From Syntrophaceae bacterium (GTDB lineage Bacteria; Desulfobacterota; Syntrophia; Syntrophales; Smithellaceae): DNA of 39,060 nucleotides. Each line of letters begins with the position of its first letter. The first letter of the stretch is position 1. The stretch spans positions 10,456-49,515 of the forward strand of contig PLGI01000171.1 of NCBI GenBank assembly GCA_003139775.1. Direction: 5' to 3'. Both the position numbers and the translations under genes were made by a program. This document shows, piece after piece, positions 6,892 to 39,037 of this stretch. The notes beneath the pieces are model-generated. The model saw only the letters and a list, made by a program, of their open reading frames with translations. It was not told the origin of the DNA and ran no database searches.

Positions 6892-6906
6892 AATTCTCTA
6901 TAGCCG

Positions 6907-7029
6907 ATACCATTTTGCTTTCAAAGGATAACGCGGCGGCAAGTAGGAGACACCGCCGGCGTATTACTAATACGCTGAGGAAGCCGATGACGCGGCCAAC
7001 AAAGTTAGCCAAAGAAAGCGAATTGGTAT
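6907..7029. repeat. Long palindromic dispersed element, copy 2
   Basis: The outer arms 6907-6926 and 7010-7029 pair over ATACCA and GCTTTC blocks. The core includes GGCGGCAAG, AGGAG, a GGCGTATT/AATACGC inner hairpin and GAGGAAGCCGATGACGC, homologous to copy 1 at 4968-5092. It lies between the adk terminator and the lepA start. Confidence 0.75.
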
Positions 7030-7036
7030 GAAGATG

Positions 7037-7067
7037 AAAAAGCCCTCATGAAAATACGAGGGCTTTT
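7037..7067 (-). terminator. Rho-independent terminator of adk
   Basis: AAAAGCCCTC and GAGGGCTTTT form a perfect 10-base-pair stem around a 10-base loop, with T-runs on both sides. It begins about 22 bases after the adk stop on the minus strand. The symmetry would let it work in both directions. Confidence 0.9.
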
Positions 7068-8010: not shown

Positions 8011-8095
8011 TGTCATTTATCTCGCGTCGCTGCGCCTCGGGGATAGTTCGACTTGCCAATATTGCGGCACTGCGTTTGTAATATTGGAGTCTCAC
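8011..8095 (-). repeat. Two-hairpin intergenic element, copy at 8.0 kb
   Basis: Read on the minus strand it opens with GTGAGACT directly after the stop codon of the FmdB gene, then a stem CCAATATT/AATATTGG around a loop holding AAACGCAGTG, then CAAGTCGAACTATCC, a second GC-rich region and ATGACACC. Flanks and loop match copies at 17.2, 19.3, 31.5 and 38.0 kb while the stem sequence differs. Confidence 0.75.
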
Positions 8096-8308
8096 TTAAT
8101 GACAGCAACCTGAAGAACAACCTGATGAGCAGGAGGAAGATGAACATGATGAACAATTTGACTTCCCGCCGGCAAATACTGACATAACCTTTTGAGGTTT
8201 TTTTGCTCCACATTCCGGACAAGAAAGTTTTTTTTCTTCCATTGATGAAAAGATCAAACTCTCAAAGATATTTTTACACTTTTTGCATCTAAATTCGTAA
8301 ATAGGCAT
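8096..8308 (-). CDS. FmdB-family zinc ribbon protein with Cys/Ser tail
   Basis: This is a 70-residue protein. MPIYEFRCKKC with Cys8 and Cys11, and CPECG with Cys30 and Cys33, form the zinc ribbon typical of the FmdB family; the family is thought to be regulatory but the function is not settled. The C-terminus (about residues 51-70) is almost entirely Cys and Ser with a final Gly-Cys-Cys-His, giving eight Cys in 20 residues, which may be disordered or bind more metal. It lies just downstream of the M48 protease gene (14-base gap), so the two are probably co-transcribed. Confidence 0.85.
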   Translation of the reverse strand: MPIYEFRCKKCKNIFESLIFSSMEEKKLSCPECGAKKPQKVMSVFAGGKSNCSSCSSSSCSSGCSSGCCH

Positions 8309-8322
8309 TGTATGTTATCCTT

Positions 8323-9744
8323 TTAAGGCTTTAATTTCCTGATCGATTTCTTATACTCGTCAGAGTTTAATTCTTTAATTGCCTGATTAATGGCGCCAGT
8401 TCGTTCTGAACCCTGCGGAAAATAAGTAAGTGCTTCTTTAAAATGAAATAGAGCACTTTCCTTCTTTTTCGCTTTTTTGAAATACAAGCCGAAATAATAA
8501 TGAGATTCGCCTTGATTATTTAGTTTACCATAGGTCATGGCAATGAAATAATTAATGTCTGCATCATCGAGCACTTTATCTTTCAGTTTCAGGTAGCAAT
8601 CAAGGGCATTTTGATAGTTATCTAAAGCAAAATAGGCTTTACCCAGTGCTAAAGTAACTTCATCGTTGTTGGTATTTAAATTTGCAGCCCGCAGAAGATA
8701 GTCTTGCGCAAGATCAGCTTTCCCCATTTTAAGATAAATTAAACCGATATTTTTTAAAACATCTTCATCCCGCGGAGATAAACTAAGCGCTTTTTGATAA
8801 TGATTGAGGGCGGAATTTGTTTGTCCGAGTTGATCTTCAGCTAAAGCAAGAGTATAGAGCAAATCAATGTTATTAGGATCTTTCTTAAAAGATTCTTCCA
8901 GTTGTTTGTACTTTGTATTCAGATCAGCTGTGTCTAATGAAACCAGAGCCTGCATCCTGCTGAGATTGCCAATAATGTTCTTTACTCCTCTCTGGTGATA
9001 TTGCGTTAAAATCAGGCTACCCAAATAAAAAATACGATCATCGGTGCCCGGATGTGTTTGTAGATAAGAAGGTATGGTTTTAGAGAAAAACTCATACTGT
9101 TTCATTATTTTAAGAAAGTCAACCATAGCTGCGGGATAATAGCCGGCGCTGACGAGATAACTTAAACCTAATCGGTCTGCTTCTTCTTCATGTTCACGCA
9201 TAAATTTTAGCGTCAGGCTGCTGGAACCGGCGACAGAAAAGGCGGCAATAGCCGCAGTAGCCTCACCACCTCCTCCTAGGAAAGCTCCGGCAATAATTGC
9301 GGCTAATGTGGCAATATTTAATTTTTGTGATTTTTCAATAAGACTGGCAACGTGATGAGAATTGGCATGGCCAAGTTCATGGGCAATAACCCCGGCTAAC
9401 TCACCTTCGTTTTCTACAACATTAATTAAGCCTTTATTGACATATACATAACCACCAGGCGTATTAAAAGCATTGATTAAATTACTATTCACAATATAAA
9501 AATGAAACTCAAACGGTGCTTTTTTACTTTGCGCGAGAATTAAATTGCCGATTTGATTTATATAATCATTGAGCTTCTTATTTTGCAGAAGAAGGTGATT
9601 TTTTTCCATTTGATCGTAAAATTCCTTGCCCAGTTTTTTTTCGTCATCGATAGTGAATTCGGCAAGACAAATGCTTGTTCGAAACAATAAGATAAAAAAA
9701 ACAACAGCAAAAGAAATATATTGATTTTGAGTAAATTTACACAT
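8323..9744 (-). CDS. M48-family periplasmic metalloprotease with TPR repeats (BepA-like)
   Basis: Zinc protease that in its BepA relatives trims misassembled outer-membrane proteins, including the LPS-export channel LptD. Residues 1-28 form a signal peptide ending near CLA. The catalytic HELGH is at 122-126 and the third ligand lies in EHEEEAD at about 184-190. Residues 280-460 contain about five TPR units with the usual LALGKAYFALDNYQNAL pattern. Length 473 matches BepA-type proteins. Expression probably begins near a short palindrome at 9764-9778. Outer-membrane quality control is inferred from the family. Confidence 0.88.
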   Translation of the reverse strand: MCKFTQNQYISFAVVFFILLFRTSICLAEFTIDDEKKLGKEFYDQMEKNHLLLQNKKLNDYINQIGNLILAQSKKAPFEFHFYIVNSNLINAFNTPGGYVYVNKGLINVVENEGELAGVIAHELGHANSHHVASLIEKSQKLNIATLAAIIAGAFLGGGGEATAAIAAFSVAGSSSLTLKFMREHEEEADRLGLSYLVSAGYYPAAMVDFLKIMKQYEFFSKTIPSYLQTHPGTDDRIFYLGSLILTQYHQRGVKNIIGNLSRMQALVSLDTADLNTKYKQLEESFKKDPNNIDLLYTLALAEDQLGQTNSALNHYQKALSLSPRDEDVLKNIGLIYLKMGKADLAQDYLLRAANLNTNNDEVTLALGKAYFALDNYQNALDCYLKLKDKVLDDADINYFIAMTYGKLNNQGESHYYFGLYFKKAKKKESALFHFKEALTYFPQGSERTGAINQAIKELNSDEYKKSIRKLKP

Positions 9745-9856: not shown

Positions 9857-10525
9857 ATGGAGAAAAAATTTATTATAACTATTGATGGACCGGCAGGCGC
9901 CGGCAAAAGTACGGTAAGCAAAACTTTAGCAAAGAAGCTGAATTATATTTATCTGGATACAGGCGCTCTTTATCGAGCACTGGCTTATAAAACGCTAAAA
10001 CTTAAAATATCTTTAGACGACGTTTCCGCCATAGCTAATCTGTGTTCCAGTACCACCGTAGTTCTGAAAAATATTGACGGCCGAATGAAAGTATATGTGG
10101 ATGGGGAAGATGTTGAGGAAAAAATTCGTACAGAAGAAGTAGGACTGGCTGCTTCTAACATATCTACTTTTGCCGTAGTGCGAGAAAGATTACTTAATTT
10201 ACAGAGAGAGGCAGGAGCTCAAGGCGGTATAGTTGCGGAAGGCAGGGATATGGGTTCAGTAGTTTTTCCGCATGCGGATTATAAATTTTTTCTTGATGCC
10301 AAATTAGAAGAAAGAATAAAAAGAAGGTACGAAGAACTTTTGGACAAAGGTGCTTCAGTCGAATATAAAACAATTCAAAAAGATATGTTCGCCAGGGATA
10401 AACAGGATAAGCAGCGTGAAATTGCGCCCCTGAAAGCGCCTGATGGTGCAATAATAATTGATTCAGATAATTTGTCTGCGGCGGAAGTCGTAGACAATAT
10501 TATCTTTTATATTCCGGTAAAATAA
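9857..10525 (+). CDS. cmk: Cytidylate kinase
   Basis: Phosphorylates CMP and dCMP with ATP in pyrimidine nucleotide supply. The P-loop GPAGAGKST is at about 11-19, followed by LDTGALYRALAYK for CMP binding and VAEGRDMGSVVFP, the hallmark of the family. Length 222 is typical. It precedes rpsA, a very widely conserved order. A GGGG motif lies about 10 bases ahead of the ATG. A palindrome follows within 3 bases of the stop. Confidence 0.96.
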   Translation: MEKKFIITIDGPAGAGKSTVSKTLAKKLNYIYLDTGALYRALAYKTLKLKISLDDVSAIANLCSSTTVVLKNIDGRMKVYVDGEDVEEKIRTEEVGLAASNISTFAVVRERLLNLQREAGAQGGIVAEGRDMGSVVFPHADYKFFLDAKLEERIKRRYEELLDKGASVEYKTIQKDMFARDKQDKQREIAPLKAPDGAIIIDSDNLSAAEVVDNIIFYIPVK

Positions 10526-13608: not shown

Positions 13609-14369
13609 CTTATCAAACTGTAATCATTGAAAAGAAAGACGGATATGCCGTAGTCAAGTTCAATCGTCCTCATGAGATGAACGCGATTTCCAAAGAGATG
13701 CGGCAGGACTTATATACGGTTTTTATTGATTTGGAGATTGATCCGGAAGTTAAAGCAATAATTATAACCGGCGGAGAATATGTTTTTTCAGCCGGTATGG
13801 ATATAAAGGAAATGTCCAGCCTTCCTAATGAGGAAGGAGATGAATTTCTTAAATCAATGATGAGGTACTTAAAAAAGATTTATTCCTGCAAAAAACCGGT
13901 AATCGCTGCAGTAGGCGGTATTGCTTTAGGTGGCGGTTTTAATCTGGTTACTGTTTGTGATCTTGTTGTTGCCTCCGAAAGCGCGATCTTTTGTCATCCC
14001 GAGTTAAAATTTGGATTCAATCCGTTTTTTTATCCGTTAAGTCAAATTGTCGGTATAACCAAAGCAAAAGAAATAGTAATGCTGGGAGAGCCGATAGGGG
14101 CGAATGAAGCCTTGAAAATCGGGTTAGTCAATAAAGTTGAGTTGCCGGAGAGATTTATGCAGGTGGCGGAAAATATAGCCCAGACCTTAGCGAAACGTTC
14201 GCCTAAAGCTTTTGAAGAATTAAAAAATCTTTGCTCTATTGTGCCGCGTATGGATAAAATGGCTGCACTGGATATAGAATCGTCAATATGCGCGTTGCTC
14301 TTTGCCCGTGATGAACGCAAAATTCAAATGAACGAAATGTTGTCTGAAAAATCCCGCAAGAAAAAATAG
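13605..14369 (+). CDS. Enoyl-CoA hydratase/isomerase family protein (crotonase fold)
   Basis: The crotonase fold is clear: the oxyanion-hole motifs SAGMDIKEM (62-70) and GGIALGGGFN (104-113) are both present. Of the two catalytic Glu of classical hydratase, the second is kept (Glu133 in HPELKFG) but the first position is Asn113. So hydration of enoyl-CoA is uncertain, and an isomerase, hydrolase or other crotonase activity is possible. The start overlaps the IHF stop by 4 bases (ATGA), so the gene ends the rpsA-sppA-IHF unit. A hairpin repeat begins exactly at its stop codon. Confidence 0.85.
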   Translation: MTYQTVIIEKKDGYAVVKFNRPHEMNAISKEMRQDLYTVFIDLEIDPEVKAIIITGGEYVFSAGMDIKEMSSLPNEEGDEFLKSMMRYLKKIYSCKKPVIAAVGGIALGGGFNLVTVCDLVVASESAIFCHPELKFGFNPFFYPLSQIVGITKAKEIVMLGEPIGANEALKIGLVNKVELPERFMQVAENIAQTLAKRSPKAFEELKNLCSIVPRMDKMAALDIESSICALLFARDERKIQMNEMLSEKSRKKK

Positions 14370-14560
14370 TGACACTCGCTGAAAACGAACGTAGTGAAGT
14401 TTGAAGCGTAAGTGGAACTATCCCCAACGCGAAGCGTTGCGGGATAAGTGACACCTTATCCAGAAGCGAAGCGCATAACCTAAAGGTCATCTGCGACTGA
14501 AATTTGTTGGACGAACTATCCCGCGAGCATAGCGAATCGGGGTAGTGAAGACCATTGTTA
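14367..14560 (+). repeat. Cluster of hairpin modules after the crotonase gene
   Basis: The stretch begins TAGTGACACTCGCTG, using the stop codon as its first bases. It then holds CAACGC/GCGTTG inside ATCCC...GGGAT, a GGATAAG/CTTATCC hairpin (14442-14461), a right half-module CTGAAATTTGTTGGACGAAC and CTATCCCG/CGGGGTAG (about 14515-14545). The module borders match those at 17.2, 31.5 and 37.7 kb. Confidence 0.7.
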
Positions 14561-14651
14561 CGAAGTTTGTCCCTGTGCCACCTGAAGGTGGCGGGATAAT
14601 TCGCTCTAAGATTTTCCGGGCACTACATTTCGGAAAATCAAGGCTCATTAA
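14561..14651 (+). repeat. Direct repeat, copy 1 (second copy near 37.7 kb)
   Basis: About 90 bases match 37675-37769 closely. The block carries GCCACC/GGTGGC and a 9-base-pair hairpin GATTTTCCG/CGGAAAATC (14610-14639), then AAGGCTCATTAAA. It lies directly downstream of the minus-strand sigma-like gene, but no T-tract follows the hairpin. Confidence 0.8.
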
Positions 14652-14653
14652 AA

Positions 14654-14938
14654 TTACAAATTATCCCAATCATTTCCCTGTATGGCAAAATCTTTAAGCT
14701 GGTCTCTTCTCTTTTTATGCTGAAGCTTTTTTAAGGCCTTAGCTTCAATTTGCCGGATTCTTTCACGCGTAACACCCATCATATCGCCCACTTCTTCCAA
14801 AGTGAATGGCCCGTAGTTACAGGCTACCCATGTACAATTTAAAAAGGATTCATTTTTTAAACGCCACTCACAGGTACTGTCAGTGCATATCTCAGTAATT
14901 AGAGTCATCTTTTTCTTGCAGGTATATGAATTATTCAT
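14654..14938 (-). CDS. Stand-alone sigma-70 region 4 mini-protein with Cys-rich N-terminus
   Basis: This is a 94-residue protein. Residues about 43-73 ([20 protein letters not shown], then [10 protein letters not shown]) are a textbook sigma-70 region 4 helix-turn-helix, which reads -35 elements. The regions 1-3 needed for a working sigma factor are missing. The N-terminal half has Cys7, Cys18, Cys23, Cys35 and Cys40, suited to a zinc or Fe-S site. I recall similar small proteins in Deltaproteobacteria but know of no assigned role. AAGGAG lies 8 bases before the ATG. It lies alone between the crotonase unit and the FTR/glutaredoxin pair. A redox- or metal-sensing DNA-binding regulator is inferred. 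Confidence 0.8.
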
Positions 14939-17114: not shown

Positions 17115-17290
17115 AGATTTTCCCCCTTTTCAAAGGGGAATCAAGGGGGATTTAGTGAGTCCTAAGTTTCAGAAACAAAGTACACTGAAATTTGCTGGAC
17201 GAACTATCCCAAGCATATAGCGATGTGGGATAATAAGTACAAAATTTAAATCTCCCCTAACCCCTCTTTAGAAAAGAGGGGAATTATGCA
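17115..17290. repeat. Intergenic hairpin modules near 17.2 kb
   Basis: This fills most of the 306-base gap between the nitroreductase and Nudix genes. A CCCCTTTT/AAAGGGG pair is followed by a two-hairpin element (17156-17232): TGAGTC flank, AAGTTTCAG/CTGAAATTT stem around AAACAAAGTACA, GGACGAACTATCCCA, then a TGGGAT closing arm. A CCCCTCTTT/AAAGAGGGG hairpin lies at 17261-17281 and could end transcription of the plus-oriented side. No gene is seen. Confidence 0.7.
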
Positions 17291-19230: not shown

Positions 19231-19411
19231 AATCCCGCGGTTTGGAATCCTCCGGCTTCAGCTTGGGGAGGAATGCGGTGTAACCTGCGGGAGGTCGCGT
19301 TATCCTCTACTTCGCAGGATAATTCGACCTACAAGCTTCAGTGCACTTCGTTTCTGAAGCTTGGGTCTCATTATTGCAGGGAATCTCCGGCTCCTACCGG
19401 AGGAGGCTCCA
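19231..19411. repeat. Composite repeat B, copy 1, with a two-hairpin element
   Basis: The block 19242-19301 (GGAATCCTCCGGCTTC, GGAGGAATGCGGTGTAA, GAGGTCGCGTTAT) is nearly the same as 24403-24464. To its right, on the minus strand, lies a two-hairpin element with a perfect 10-base-pair stem CAAGCTTCAG/CTGAAGCTTG around AAACGAAGTGCA, flanked by AATGAGAC and GGTCGAATTATCC. The block ends in CCGGAGGAGGCTCCACT right at the rpiB stop. Confidence 0.8.
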
Positions 19412-19855
19412 CTATTTATTTTCTACATCCATGATTTTGGCGACTCTTCTTGCATGCCTATCGCCGGCAAACTTTGTATCCATAAATATTTCGATCATTT
19501 TCATAACGGGTACAGAATATTTTACTCTGCCGCCAAAAGCGATAAAATTAGCATCATTGTGCGTTTTGGCCATCTCGGCGGTAAAGAGATCATGAATTAA
19601 GGCACACCGGATGCCTTTGATTTTATTTGCGGCAATCGACATTCCAATTCCCGTTCCGCAAAGCAGAATGCCGAAATCATACCCGCCTTTTTTAAATTCT
19701 TCGCAGGCAATCACGGCGATATCGGGGTAATCTACAGAATTATCGTTATTTACTCCCATATCTTTTATCTCGCAATTCTTTGTTTTTAAAAAGGATATAA
19801 TTTCACTTTTTAAAGCCACGGCGCCATGATCGGAAGCAATAATAATTTTTTTCAT
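19412..19855 (-). CDS. rpiB: Ribose-5-phosphate isomerase B
   Basis: Interconverts ribulose-5-phosphate and ribose-5-phosphate in the pentose phosphate pathway. Length 147. Asp9-His10 in IASDHGA, the catalytic Cys66 in LLCGTGIGMS, and His99 in KTHNDANF are all in place, as is the GIRCALIHD stretch. The start at 19855 fits the family and has TTGGAG about 10 bases upstream; a longer frame begins 39 bases earlier. The gene diverges from xerD. Confidence 0.94.
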   Translation of the reverse strand: MKKIIIASDHGAVALKSEIISFLKTKNCEIKDMGVNNDNSVDYPDIAVIACEEFKKGGYDFGILLCGTGIGMSIAANKIKGIRCALIHDLFTAEMAKTHNDANFIAFGGRVKYSVPVMKMIEIFMDTKFAGDRHARRVAKIMDVENK

Positions 19856-24349: not shown

Positions 24350-24363
24350 AAGATAGTGCAGTT

Positions 24364-24503
24364 AATCCCTCGGTTTGTGTACAACTAGAACATCGTTTAC
24401 ATTTGGAATCCTCCGGCTCCAGCCGGTGGAGGAATGCGGTGTAATCCGCGAGAGGTCGCGTTATTTTGGGGAGCCTCCGGTTCCTGAGGTGGGGCTCCAC
24501 TAG
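24364..24503. repeat. Composite repeat B, copy 2
   Basis: GGAATCCTCCGGCTCC, GGAGGAATGCGGTGTAA, GAGGTCGCGTTAT and a GGAGCC...GGCTCC arm match the copy at 19231-19411. Here about 30 extra bases separate the CGGTTT start from GGAATCC. It occupies the main part of the 278-base gap between kdsC and lptC; the rest (24505-24627) is AT-rich with no gene. Confidence 0.8.
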
Positions 24504-31497: not shown

Positions 31498-31636
31498 TGA
31501 GACTCGCTGACTATAGGAAGCGTTAGTTGTAGTGAGACACAAATTTCATAAGCTCAGCTTAGTGAAATTTGTAAGTCGAACTATCCAATAGCCAAAAGCT
31601 ATTGGAAATTATCCCACGTGCGAAGCTAAGTGGGAC
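31498..31636 (+). repeat. Two-hairpin intergenic element, copy at 31.5 kb
   Basis: After a TGAGACTCGCTGA start, the perfect 10-base-pair stem ACAAATTTCA/TGAAATTTGT surrounds a loop TAAGCTCAGCTTAG. Then come AAGTCGAACTATCC, a CCAATAGC/GCTATTGG hairpin and a further CCCAC/GTGGG hairpin. Flanks match the copies at 8.0, 17.2, 19.3 and 38.0 kb. It fills the centre of the 361-base gap between M23 and coaBC. Confidence 0.78.
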
Positions 31637-37682: not shown

Positions 37683-37995
37683 GGTTTGTCACTGCCACCT
37701 GAAGATGGCTGGATAATTCTTTCTTAGATTTTCCGAGTACTAAGTTTCGGAAAATCAAGGCTCATTAAAGCGTAAGTGGAATTGATTTCAGGAGCGTAGC
37801 GATAGTGACTCTCGCTGAGAGCGAATGAAATGACGTTCGAAGCTCAAGAGGAACAATCCCACCAACGCAGTTAGCAGGGATGTGGGATCAAGGAATGTAA
37901 ATAAAATTTCTGTCATTGCCCGGCCTGACCGGGCAATCCAGTTACTAAGTTTATGTGTTGAATTATAAAAGCATAAAGTATTTTTACTGAGTGTT
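37656..37995 (+). repeat. Cluster of hairpin modules after the aminotransferase
   Basis: It contains, in order, the ATGACACTCGC module overlapping the stop codon; the direct repeat 37675-37769, matching 14561-14651, with hairpin GATTTTCCG/CGGAAAATC at 37727-37756; a second module from about 37805 (AGTGACTCTCGCTGAGAGCG); an ATCCCAC/GTGGGAT pair (about 37857-37889); and GTCATTGCCCGG...CCGGGCAAT. No gene is seen in this part of the 485-base gap. Confidence 0.75.
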
Positions 37996-38110
37996 AATGA
38001 GTCCCAAGTTTTAGAAACGCAGTGAACGGAAACTTGCTGGTCTAATTATCCCGCCACAGGCGGAGGATATCGAAGATATCCGAGATGCCGACAGCGGAGC
38101 GGCGTTTGCA
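37996..38110 (+). repeat. Two-hairpin intergenic element, copy at 38.0 kb
   Basis: AATGAGTCC, then stem CAAGTTTT/GGAAACTTG (one G-U pair) around AGAAACGCAGTGAAC, then CTGGTCTAATTATCC, CCGCC/GGCGG, and a GGATATC/GATATCC pair. It matches 17156-17232 over the first half. It ends shortly before the 18-base sequence shared with 16360-16377. Confidence 0.75.
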
Positions 38111-38140: not shown

Positions 38141-38167
38141 ATGCCTAAAATCTGAGAGGAGGGAATG

Positions 38168-39037
38168 ATGGCAATCTCTGAATTTGCTACTTATATGAAT
38201 CCACTTATCTTAGCGTTAAGGAAATTAGGTGGTTCGGCTCGTGCGGATGAAGTATGCAACGCCATTGCGGAAACATTACATCTTCCAGATGTTGTATTGG
38301 ATAAACAGCTTAAGAATGGTGAGTCCAGATTCAAAAACCAAGTCCACTGGGCAAGGTTTTATTTGGCTAATACAGAATATATTGACTCTTCTAAACGTGG
38401 TGTTTGGACATTAACAGAGAAAGGCCAGACCACTTCAGAACTAAACGAAGATCAGTTACGTGAAATAATACAAGAAGTACAAACAAAAACTGTAAAAACA
38501 AAACTAGATAAAATCCAAAGCCAATTGGTTCGAGCTGAGGATAACAGTGGGGTAACCTTGCCAGATGCAACTGCGGCAAATTCAAGGGAACAATTACGGA
38601 ATATTCTTAAATCATTGTCGCCTTCAGGTTTTGAGCGTATCTGTCAAAGATTGCTTAGAGAAGCTGGTTTTGAAAAAGTTGAAGTTACTGGGAGGTCTGG
38701 TGATGGGGGAATTGATGGAAATGGTGTTCTACAACTTAATCCGTTTGTAAGCTTTCAAGTTCTTTTCCAGTGCAAGCGATATGAAGGAAATGTTACCGCA
38801 TCTCAAGTTCGAGATTTCCGTGGTGCTATGATGGGCCGAGCCGAAAAAGGAATAATATTGACTACGGGTCGCTTTACCGCAGATGCAGAACGTGAAGCAA
38901 CCCGGGATGGCGTGCAACCTATTGAGCTTGTTGATGGCGATAAGCTTGTGTCAATGTTTGAACAGCTTGAGCTTGGAATGAGACCACAAACAGTATATGA
39001 AGTTGACGAAGCATTCTTTGAGCCATTTAAGGAATAA
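38168..39037 (+). CDS. Mrr-type restriction endonuclease (orphan, type IV-like)
   Basis: Cleaves DNA, by family often with modified bases. Residues 1-90 are the winged-helix Mrr N-domain; residues 148-270 are the PD-(D/E)xK-like catalytic domain with Glu156 (GFERICQRLL), Asp183 (GDGGIDG) and Gln201-x-Lys203 (FQCKRY). These residues are intact. AGGAGG at 38157-38162 fits the ATG at 38168 better than the in-frame ATG 3 bases earlier. No methyltransferase or specificity gene is near. Surrounding repeats and the shared 18-base upstream sequence suggest that it was acquired. Confidence 0.9.
   Translation: MAISEFATYMNPLILALRKLGGSARADEVCNAIAETLHLPDVVLDKQLKNGESRFKNQVHWARFYLANTEYIDSSKRGVWTLTEKGQTTSELNEDQLREIIQEVQTKTVKTKLDKIQSQLVRAEDNSGVTLPDATAANSREQLRNILKSLSPSGFERICQRLLREAGFEKVEVTGRSGDGGIDGNGVLQLNPFVSFQVLFQCKRYEGNVTASQVRDFRGAMMGRAEKGIILTTGRFTADAEREATRDGVQPIELVDGDKLVSMFEQLELGMRPQTVYEVDEAFFEPFKE

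Follow-up and report, generated by a model that had tools for sequence, protein, structure and literature searches.

The 39,060-nucleotide stretch of a Syntrophaceae genome analysed here (the window) carries a short double hairpin that recurs between genes with strongly varying stems, which raises the question of what such an element is and how it spreads. An initial annotation, made from the sequence alone, had listed five copies and proposed a mobile hairpin, an RNA processing or termination signal, or a protein-binding site. All five were present within a few bases of where it had placed them, and refolding confirmed each. With a covariance model of the first hairpin (the H1 unit), nine strong copies, scoring from 51.6 to 78.1 bits, and one weak copy were found in the window; the nine strong copies are all rows of the model's alignment and match it by construction, five of them having been found independently. 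These copies, the second hairpins (H2) and the composite elements are distributed as follows:

8041-8096, minus strand: H1 unit, a reported copy (67.6 bits), directly 3' of a small ORF (FmdB-like by eye), next to its stop codon.
14368-14423, plus strand: H1 unit (72.8 bits) whose TAG doubles as the stop codon of the enoyl-CoA hydratase gene.
14419-14444, plus strand: second hairpin of the 14368 copy, a row of the H2 alignment.
14447-14521, plus strand: weak copy (18.8 bits, E 0.013) with an extended apical loop (module TAACCTAAAGGTCATCTGCGA).
14594-14649, minus strand: H1 unit (64.1 bits) just past the end of a convergent ORF (14654-14938, minus).
17154-17209, plus strand: H1 unit, a reported copy (67.0 bits).
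17205-17230, plus strand: second hairpin of the 17154 copy, row L183:362-387 of the H2 alignment.
19233-19413, minus strand: composite element of about 180 bp carrying H1-H2, at the rpiB/methyltransferase site; ends approximate, from site comparison.
19301-19321, minus strand: second hairpin of the 19317 copy, TATCC TGCGAAGTAGA GGATA, read from the sequence.
19317-19372, minus strand: H1 unit (56-mer), a reported copy (78.1 bits), inside the composite insertion.
24351-24501, minus strand: related outer composite (repeat D7) without the H1-H2 module, from repeat comparison.
31531-31586, plus strand: H1 unit, a reported copy (65.9 bits), in a divergent intergenic region.
37711-37766, minus strand: H1 unit (53.3 bits).
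37804-37859, plus strand: H1 unit (51.6 bits) of the subfamily with an inner tandem G.A.
37996-38051, plus strand: H1 unit, a reported copy (63.7 bits).

No Rfam covariance model matched within the window at its gathering score, and a tRNA scan of the window returned nothing. In another locus (L030), immediately 5' of the minus-strand copy at 1360, an element comes directly after what by eye is an apparent tRNA 3' end, and an integrase-like gene is present in the same locus. Within the window, a gene for an Mrr-type restriction endonuclease (38165-39037) lies directly 3' of the 37996 copy. A different repeat of about 125 bp, with many copies in two related genomes (G014 and G010; about 79-93% identity), occupies positions 6906-7040, in the gap that separates lepA from the adenylate kinase gene. 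A further type of repeat, containing runs like CCCCCTTTTCAAAGGGGAATCAAGGGGG, was seen at about 17115-17153 and 17247-17283 as well as in loci L018 and L009, and stretches like it flank hairpin copies elsewhere in the window's genome. In addition, a module like TAACCTGAAGGTCATCTGCGA was found in the apical loop of some H1 copies (L010, L016, L020, L032, and about position 14470 of the window).

The H1 unit is a rigid 56-nt structure, ART-GA-(4 bp)-(10 bp)-12-nt loop-(10 bp)-2-nt bulge-(4 bp)-GA-AYT-ATCC, and its interior length is identical in all five reported copies (ARTGA, 42 bases, GAAYT, ATCC). The two GA at its base form a tandem G.A mismatch, the 12-nt loop contains a 2-bp mini-hairpin that closes a G-N-A-like triloop, and in some subfamilies another tandem G.A replaces Watson-Crick pairs at two inner positions. 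The second hairpin begins with the ATCC at the 3' end of the H1 unit, and on the other side a T directly precedes ARTGA in 205 of 214 contexts. Among the copies selected by pattern, the basal GA was nearly invariant (208 of 208 on one side, 206 of 208 on the other), a figure raised artificially by the presence of GA in the search pattern itself. As controls against this selection bias we used shuffles, a tree-based null and a set of unselected hairpins, located by loop and upper stem alone in the window, L001-L008, L153-L212 and L248-L257. In these hairpins, for which the basal box was neither required nor used to fetch the sources, the 5'-side GA was present in 20 of 20 and the 3'-side GA was missing in 4, leaving GA on both sides in 16 of 20, and the bulge was exactly 2 nt in all 13 with a perfect lower stem. 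A wider, partly selected set gave GA/GA in 149 of 162 and a 2-nt bulge in 127 of 128. The basal G.A mismatches and the bulge are thus mostly kept, although less absolutely than the pattern-selected set implied.

The claim that structure rather than sequence is kept was borne out by the covariation of the H1 stems. For this analysis, 208 distinct copies had been selected by a pattern fixing the basal boxes together with at least 9 of 14 paired stem positions, from which the 48 maximally different ones were aligned with five window copies. In this 53-sequence alignment, 90.1% of the 1007 pair cells were paired, compared to 62.7% after shuffling; the selection inflates the percentage and means that the basal pairs say little. 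Cells changed on both sides numbered 298 vs 90.4 in shuffles, a sample of maximally different rows favouring variation, and the covariation score was 0.736 vs 0.227, falling to 0.134 or less when the partner was slid by 1 to 3 columns. Two coarser measures did not separate the alignment from its shuffles: pairs changed on both sides (17 of 19 vs 15.4, reached by 84 of 500 shuffles) and further pair types (49 vs 45.3, reached by 38 of 500). RNAalifold predicted 15 pairs on the same alignment, 14 of them with compensatory changes. Under the tree-based null, run with our own code on the 208 copies by re-placing the changes of each column on a FastTree tree (100 simulations), 8 pairs were significant at E<=0.05, all of them structural, as were the 14 strongest pairs, while 11 of the 19 structural pairs did not reach significance. 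The remark that the second hairpin behaves alike was only partly right: the hairpin is present, but over 49 copies its base is invariant, in part because the selection pattern fixes it, its inner pairs fit no single fold, and covariation further in is weak (0.115 vs 0.073).

Further copies of the unit were found outside the window. Allowing one mismatch at most, the pattern ARTGA-N42-GAAYTATCC has 272 occurrences in the window's genome (3.4 Mb in 206 contigs; 153 forward and 119 reverse), compared to a single match for the reversed control. The covariance model built from the 53 copies matched 150 of the 150 candidates that were scored on this genome, out of 1555, so that the pattern count is preferred. 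Scanning of 60 relatives with the pattern, mostly draft genomes in which absences may be gaps, gave from 8 to 272 copies across 17 genomes of the genus, varying counts in the rest of the family, and mostly values near the control outside it. With the covariance model, 59 of 155 genomes of the class matched: the family accounts for 44 of these, out of its 51 genomes, and the remaining 15 belong to other families of the order and have one to three copies each. Some of the matches outside the family are variants with other loops on the same base, TGAGACT...AGTCGAATT. In three loci of another family of the order (L230, L231, and L232), variants are found, some in tandem, that have the base box in common and differ in their loops and type of second hairpin.

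At least 97 stretches in a species collection carry the unit with its loop; the titles among the matches listed are Smithella, Smithellaceae, Syntrophaceae or Deltaproteobacteria, with a single exception, Woesearchaeota, the contig concerned (L067) being possibly misbinned. The element also appears in fifteen stretches of IMG/VR contigs, one of which (L148) has two copies, at 8848-8903 and 9891-9946, each coinciding with the stop codon of an ORF read in the same direction. The element is concentrated in one Smithella/Syntrophaceae family, and keyword searches of an open-access library listed no description of such repeats in Smithella or Syntrophales.

Comparison between relatives revealed that these copies move. 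Between 4.9 and 24.8 kb of the window, as covered, gene order is largely kept in G014 (84-95% identity per block) and G010 (about 84%), with a replaced stretch in G014 between 15.7 and 17.3 kb, and many intergenic sites differ in their hairpin elements, clean gains being seen on either side. The rpiB/methyltransferase site, analysed in 17 genomes of the genus, is empty in 12, filled in 3, rearranged in 1 and was not recovered in 1. The two genes are separated by 32-34 nt in the 12 empty genomes, G014 and G010 among them, vs 213 nt in the window, and by 197 and 120 nt at the two other filled sites, which contain a different composite. In addition, G014 is devoid of the element at the site of the window's 8041 copy, both G014 and G010 show unrelated bases (27 and 40, respectively) at the site of the outer composite at 24351-24501, and more filled/empty pairs were found among the other fetched loci. 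These pairs correspond to clean insertions; by eye, they show no consistent sign of the target site duplication that, together with terminal inverted repeats, characterises MITEs, the element ends being approximate. This insertion polymorphism at orthologous sites identifies the element as mobile, in line with the first of the readings proposed initially.

The modules also nest. At two different loci (pairs L052/L036 and L186/L191), the H1-H2 module was found at the same internal junction of an outer element, with a relative in which the module is absent. At the enoyl-CoA hydratase junction, the window, G014 (L097) and G010 carry three different stems at an identical position, and at a NUDIX gene junction G014 and G010 differ in stem, the window's genome having no element there. 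Reinsertion at a favoured site, or exchange between copies, is a possible origin of these differing stems, and some of the stem exchange could be due to gene conversion among copies. On the whole, we consider that the element is probably mobile DNA of the REP/BIME type, short and non-autonomous, with H1 plus H2, about 80 bp, as its unit.

The location of the copies bears on whether they act in a transcript or in DNA. Of 218 copies, a number that includes orthologous sites of related genomes (only identical copies were removed), 204 lie outside any ORF of at least 100 aa and 14 overlap one, the ORFs being mechanical and not gene calls. A cis-acting RNA kept by selection on the transcript, such as a 3'UTR stabiliser, a processing site or a terminator, would agree with this intergenic position, with the strong compensatory change and with the contact with stop codons: in 15 of the 97 same-strand cases the TAR of the element serves as stop codon of the gene upstream, vs 0 to 4 cases at any other offset up to 30 nt. 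However, the sites are not conserved between relatives, the 204 intergenic copies are evenly oriented to the upstream gene (97 in the same and 97 in the opposite orientation, 10 without an upstream ORF), and divergent regions are not avoided, with 104, 36 and 26 copies in tandem, divergent and convergent gaps, compared to 354, 92 and 67 such gaps in the same loci. A role in RNA termination or processing, one of those proposed at the outset, is thus not supported by orientation or position, and a cis-acting RNA in general looks distinctly unlikely. The tandem G.A and the G-N-A loop are present on one strand only, and the top strand is more stable with DNA parameters in 165 of 208 copies (7 equal); RNA folding favours this same strand (133 of 208), which would also agree with an RNA role, so that folding cannot separate DNA from RNA. 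G.T pairs, an excess of which would point to the functional strand, outnumber A.C mismatches slightly, 75 to 57, partly due to one subfamily. It is the lack of a transcript-strand preference that makes single-stranded DNA the more likely acting form. Template switching during replication can restore complementarity without selection, and could in this way keep neutral palindromes symmetrical, but it would erase the bulge and the G.A mismatches, both retained among the unselected hairpins (13 of 13 and 16 of 20), and insertions are observed between relatives, which leaves this explanation with hardly any credibility.

Three kinds of enzyme were considered as possible movers of the element. Integron attC sites carry R'/R'' core boxes and are recognised as folded single strands with extrahelical bases; attC-like sites exchanged on folded single strands by an integron integrase or another tyrosine recombinase would explain a fold conserved over sequence, the extrahelical bases and the exchange of modules at fixed junctions. 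Of 36 genomes, 21 have an integron integrase over the cut-off and every one has weaker tyrosine-recombinase matches, but no integrase over the cut-off was detected in the three with most copies (G000, which is the window's genome, G010, and G014), nor in G008 and G011, and the listed copies are spread over many contigs, with no cassette arrays seen. Missing over the cut-off from element-rich genomes, the integron integrase was rejected as a general driver, and attC-like exchange appears very unlikely. Spread through an RNA copy made by a reverse transcriptase would suit an RNA-like covarying fold, and an RNA intermediate has been proposed for certain hairpin elements (PMC2800124), but RVT_1, found in 13 of the 36 genomes, gave no match in G000, G006, G010, G008 or G011; missing from several rich genomes, this enzyme was likewise rejected as a general driver, and we give the route almost no weight. 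The initial annotation had pointed to a RAYT-type transposase, and genes of this kind are present: Y1_Tnp (PF01797, searched in 36 genomes) was found in 17 of 22 family genomes, with two genes in that of the window, and E. coli REPs likewise need a mid-stem mismatch or bulge for activity (PMC8266576). Nevertheless, copy number did not correlate with Y1 gene number (Spearman 0.22, p 0.33 for the 22 family genomes; 0.29, p 0.26 for the genus only), no Y1 match was obtained in G008 (81 copies, 98% complete, 10 contigs), G011 (49 copies) or G012 (86 copies, 79% complete), and the element was near just 1 of the 19 Y1 loci examined, out of 49 Y1 matches in the 22 family genomes. That locus, L163, harbours variant elements found by the covariance model and missed by the pattern, and we estimate such a single adjacency to be about chance level for an element-rich genome. 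Furthermore, the RAYT-like gene of the window's genome (333 aa; L040, G000:C119, 1432-2433) has an inverted repeat of its own, around CAAGTCTACTCTTGACTCATG, on either side; this repeat is different from the H1-H2 element, and in this respect the gene resembles the RAYT genes with unrelated long terminal repeats described in PMC3733652. Of 210 copies, 14 have GTAG exactly at the 5' junction, but just 17 of 210 contexts have it within -8 to +5 of the unit (22 with GTAG or GTGG), and 2 have its complement on the 3' side. RAYT/Y1 as sole driver was rejected on copy number and adjacency, and a GTAG-type REP moved by a RAYT (Y1 HUH) transposase is unlikely.

No transposase appeared among the 25 largest clusters of neighbouring proteins; one cluster corresponded to integrase-like proteins from 6 loci, of which three represent a single place. 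A search for an autonomous partner with the same ends led to module pairs 0.5-2.6 kb apart (L163, L113), which proved to be separate short elements, and to pairs 1.03-1.04 kb apart (L148, L099), whose enclosed genes look unrelated; a search with the protein enclosed in L148 gave only two contigs already known, and there was no PHROG match. Neither Y1 transposases nor integron integrases nor reverse transcriptases explain the spread, although such an enzyme may have been lost after past activity.

Under the short non-autonomous DNA element that we favour, the strand that bears both the G.A mismatches and the G-N-A loop would fold as single-stranded DNA during replication, and a protein would recognise the fold, that is, the basal tandem G.A, the 2-nt bulge and the 12-nt loop, instead of the sequence of the stems. 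This protein would then move the element to T-rich sites between genes or beside older copies, and the protein-binding site proposed initially is a possible description of the hairpin. Insertion at the very end of a gene would do little harm, because the basal box TARTGA supplies stop codons.

Among known systems, the mitochondrial double-hairpin elements of Allomyces are reportedly short mobile intergenic hairpins. Together with the RHEs of sponges they are the nearest in shape, as short mobile intergenic units, but they are organellar. Moreover, in sponge RHEs the stems are described as conserved and the loops as variable (PMC2800124), the reverse of the present element. Bacterial REPs have been divided into GTAG- and CGTC-tagged super-families, the latter presented without a dedicated transposase (PMC3733652). 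Like GTAG REPs, REPINs and BIMEs, the element consists of short extragenic hairpins with a stem mismatch or bulge, in hundreds of copies and in clusters, but it has a longer, fixed interior of 42 nt, strongly varying stems and nested modules, and shows no RAYT association; the high-copy extragenic palindrome of a GTAG REP was found, mostly without its tag and, but for one of the Y1 loci examined, without a RAYT gene flanked by the element. It is also free of the bias to unidirectional or convergent regions reported for REPs of the GTAG type (PMC3733652). REPIN spacers show compensatory changes (PMC3116915), which, together with the bulge needed in E. coli REPs, makes a fold-recognising enzyme plausible here. 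CGTC-tagged REPs, which include Rickettsia RPE-4/6 and Neisseria dRS3, share with the element many hairpin copies without a dedicated transposase, as they are described in PMC3733652. However, the present architecture is larger, with two hairpins and a tandem G.A, and the CGTC tag at one end is mostly absent: of 210 copies, 1 has CGTC on the 5' side, and in 18 the complement GACG lies on the 3' side, as part of the stem base of one subfamily. Given these counts and the 14 of 210 for GTAG, neither tag defines the family. Nor does it have the integrase that attC sites would call for in the genomes where it spreads (G000, G010, and G014, at the cut-off used), whereas the insertion polymorphism at orthologous sites is that of a REP-like mobile hairpin. 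The element is REP-like in this broad sense and a member of neither REP super-family.

More tentatively, and with the balance of our judgement still against it, the element might represent a third super-family among the palindromic mobile elements of bacteria, recognised through its fold and not its sequence. A host or parasite enzyme that is neither a Y1 transposase nor an integron integrase nor a reverse transcriptase would spread it, and its hairpins would act as building blocks, inserting into one another and exchanging stems at fixed junctions. REPs of the CGTC type have long been without an enzyme; here, an abundant family is available with many natural variants and clear filled and empty sites, and its covariation map shows which bases an enzyme would need to see, so that the spread of small hairpins without a known transposase becomes a testable question. 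Finally, the junction with stop codons and the modular nesting record how syntrophic bacteria build their intergenic DNA.
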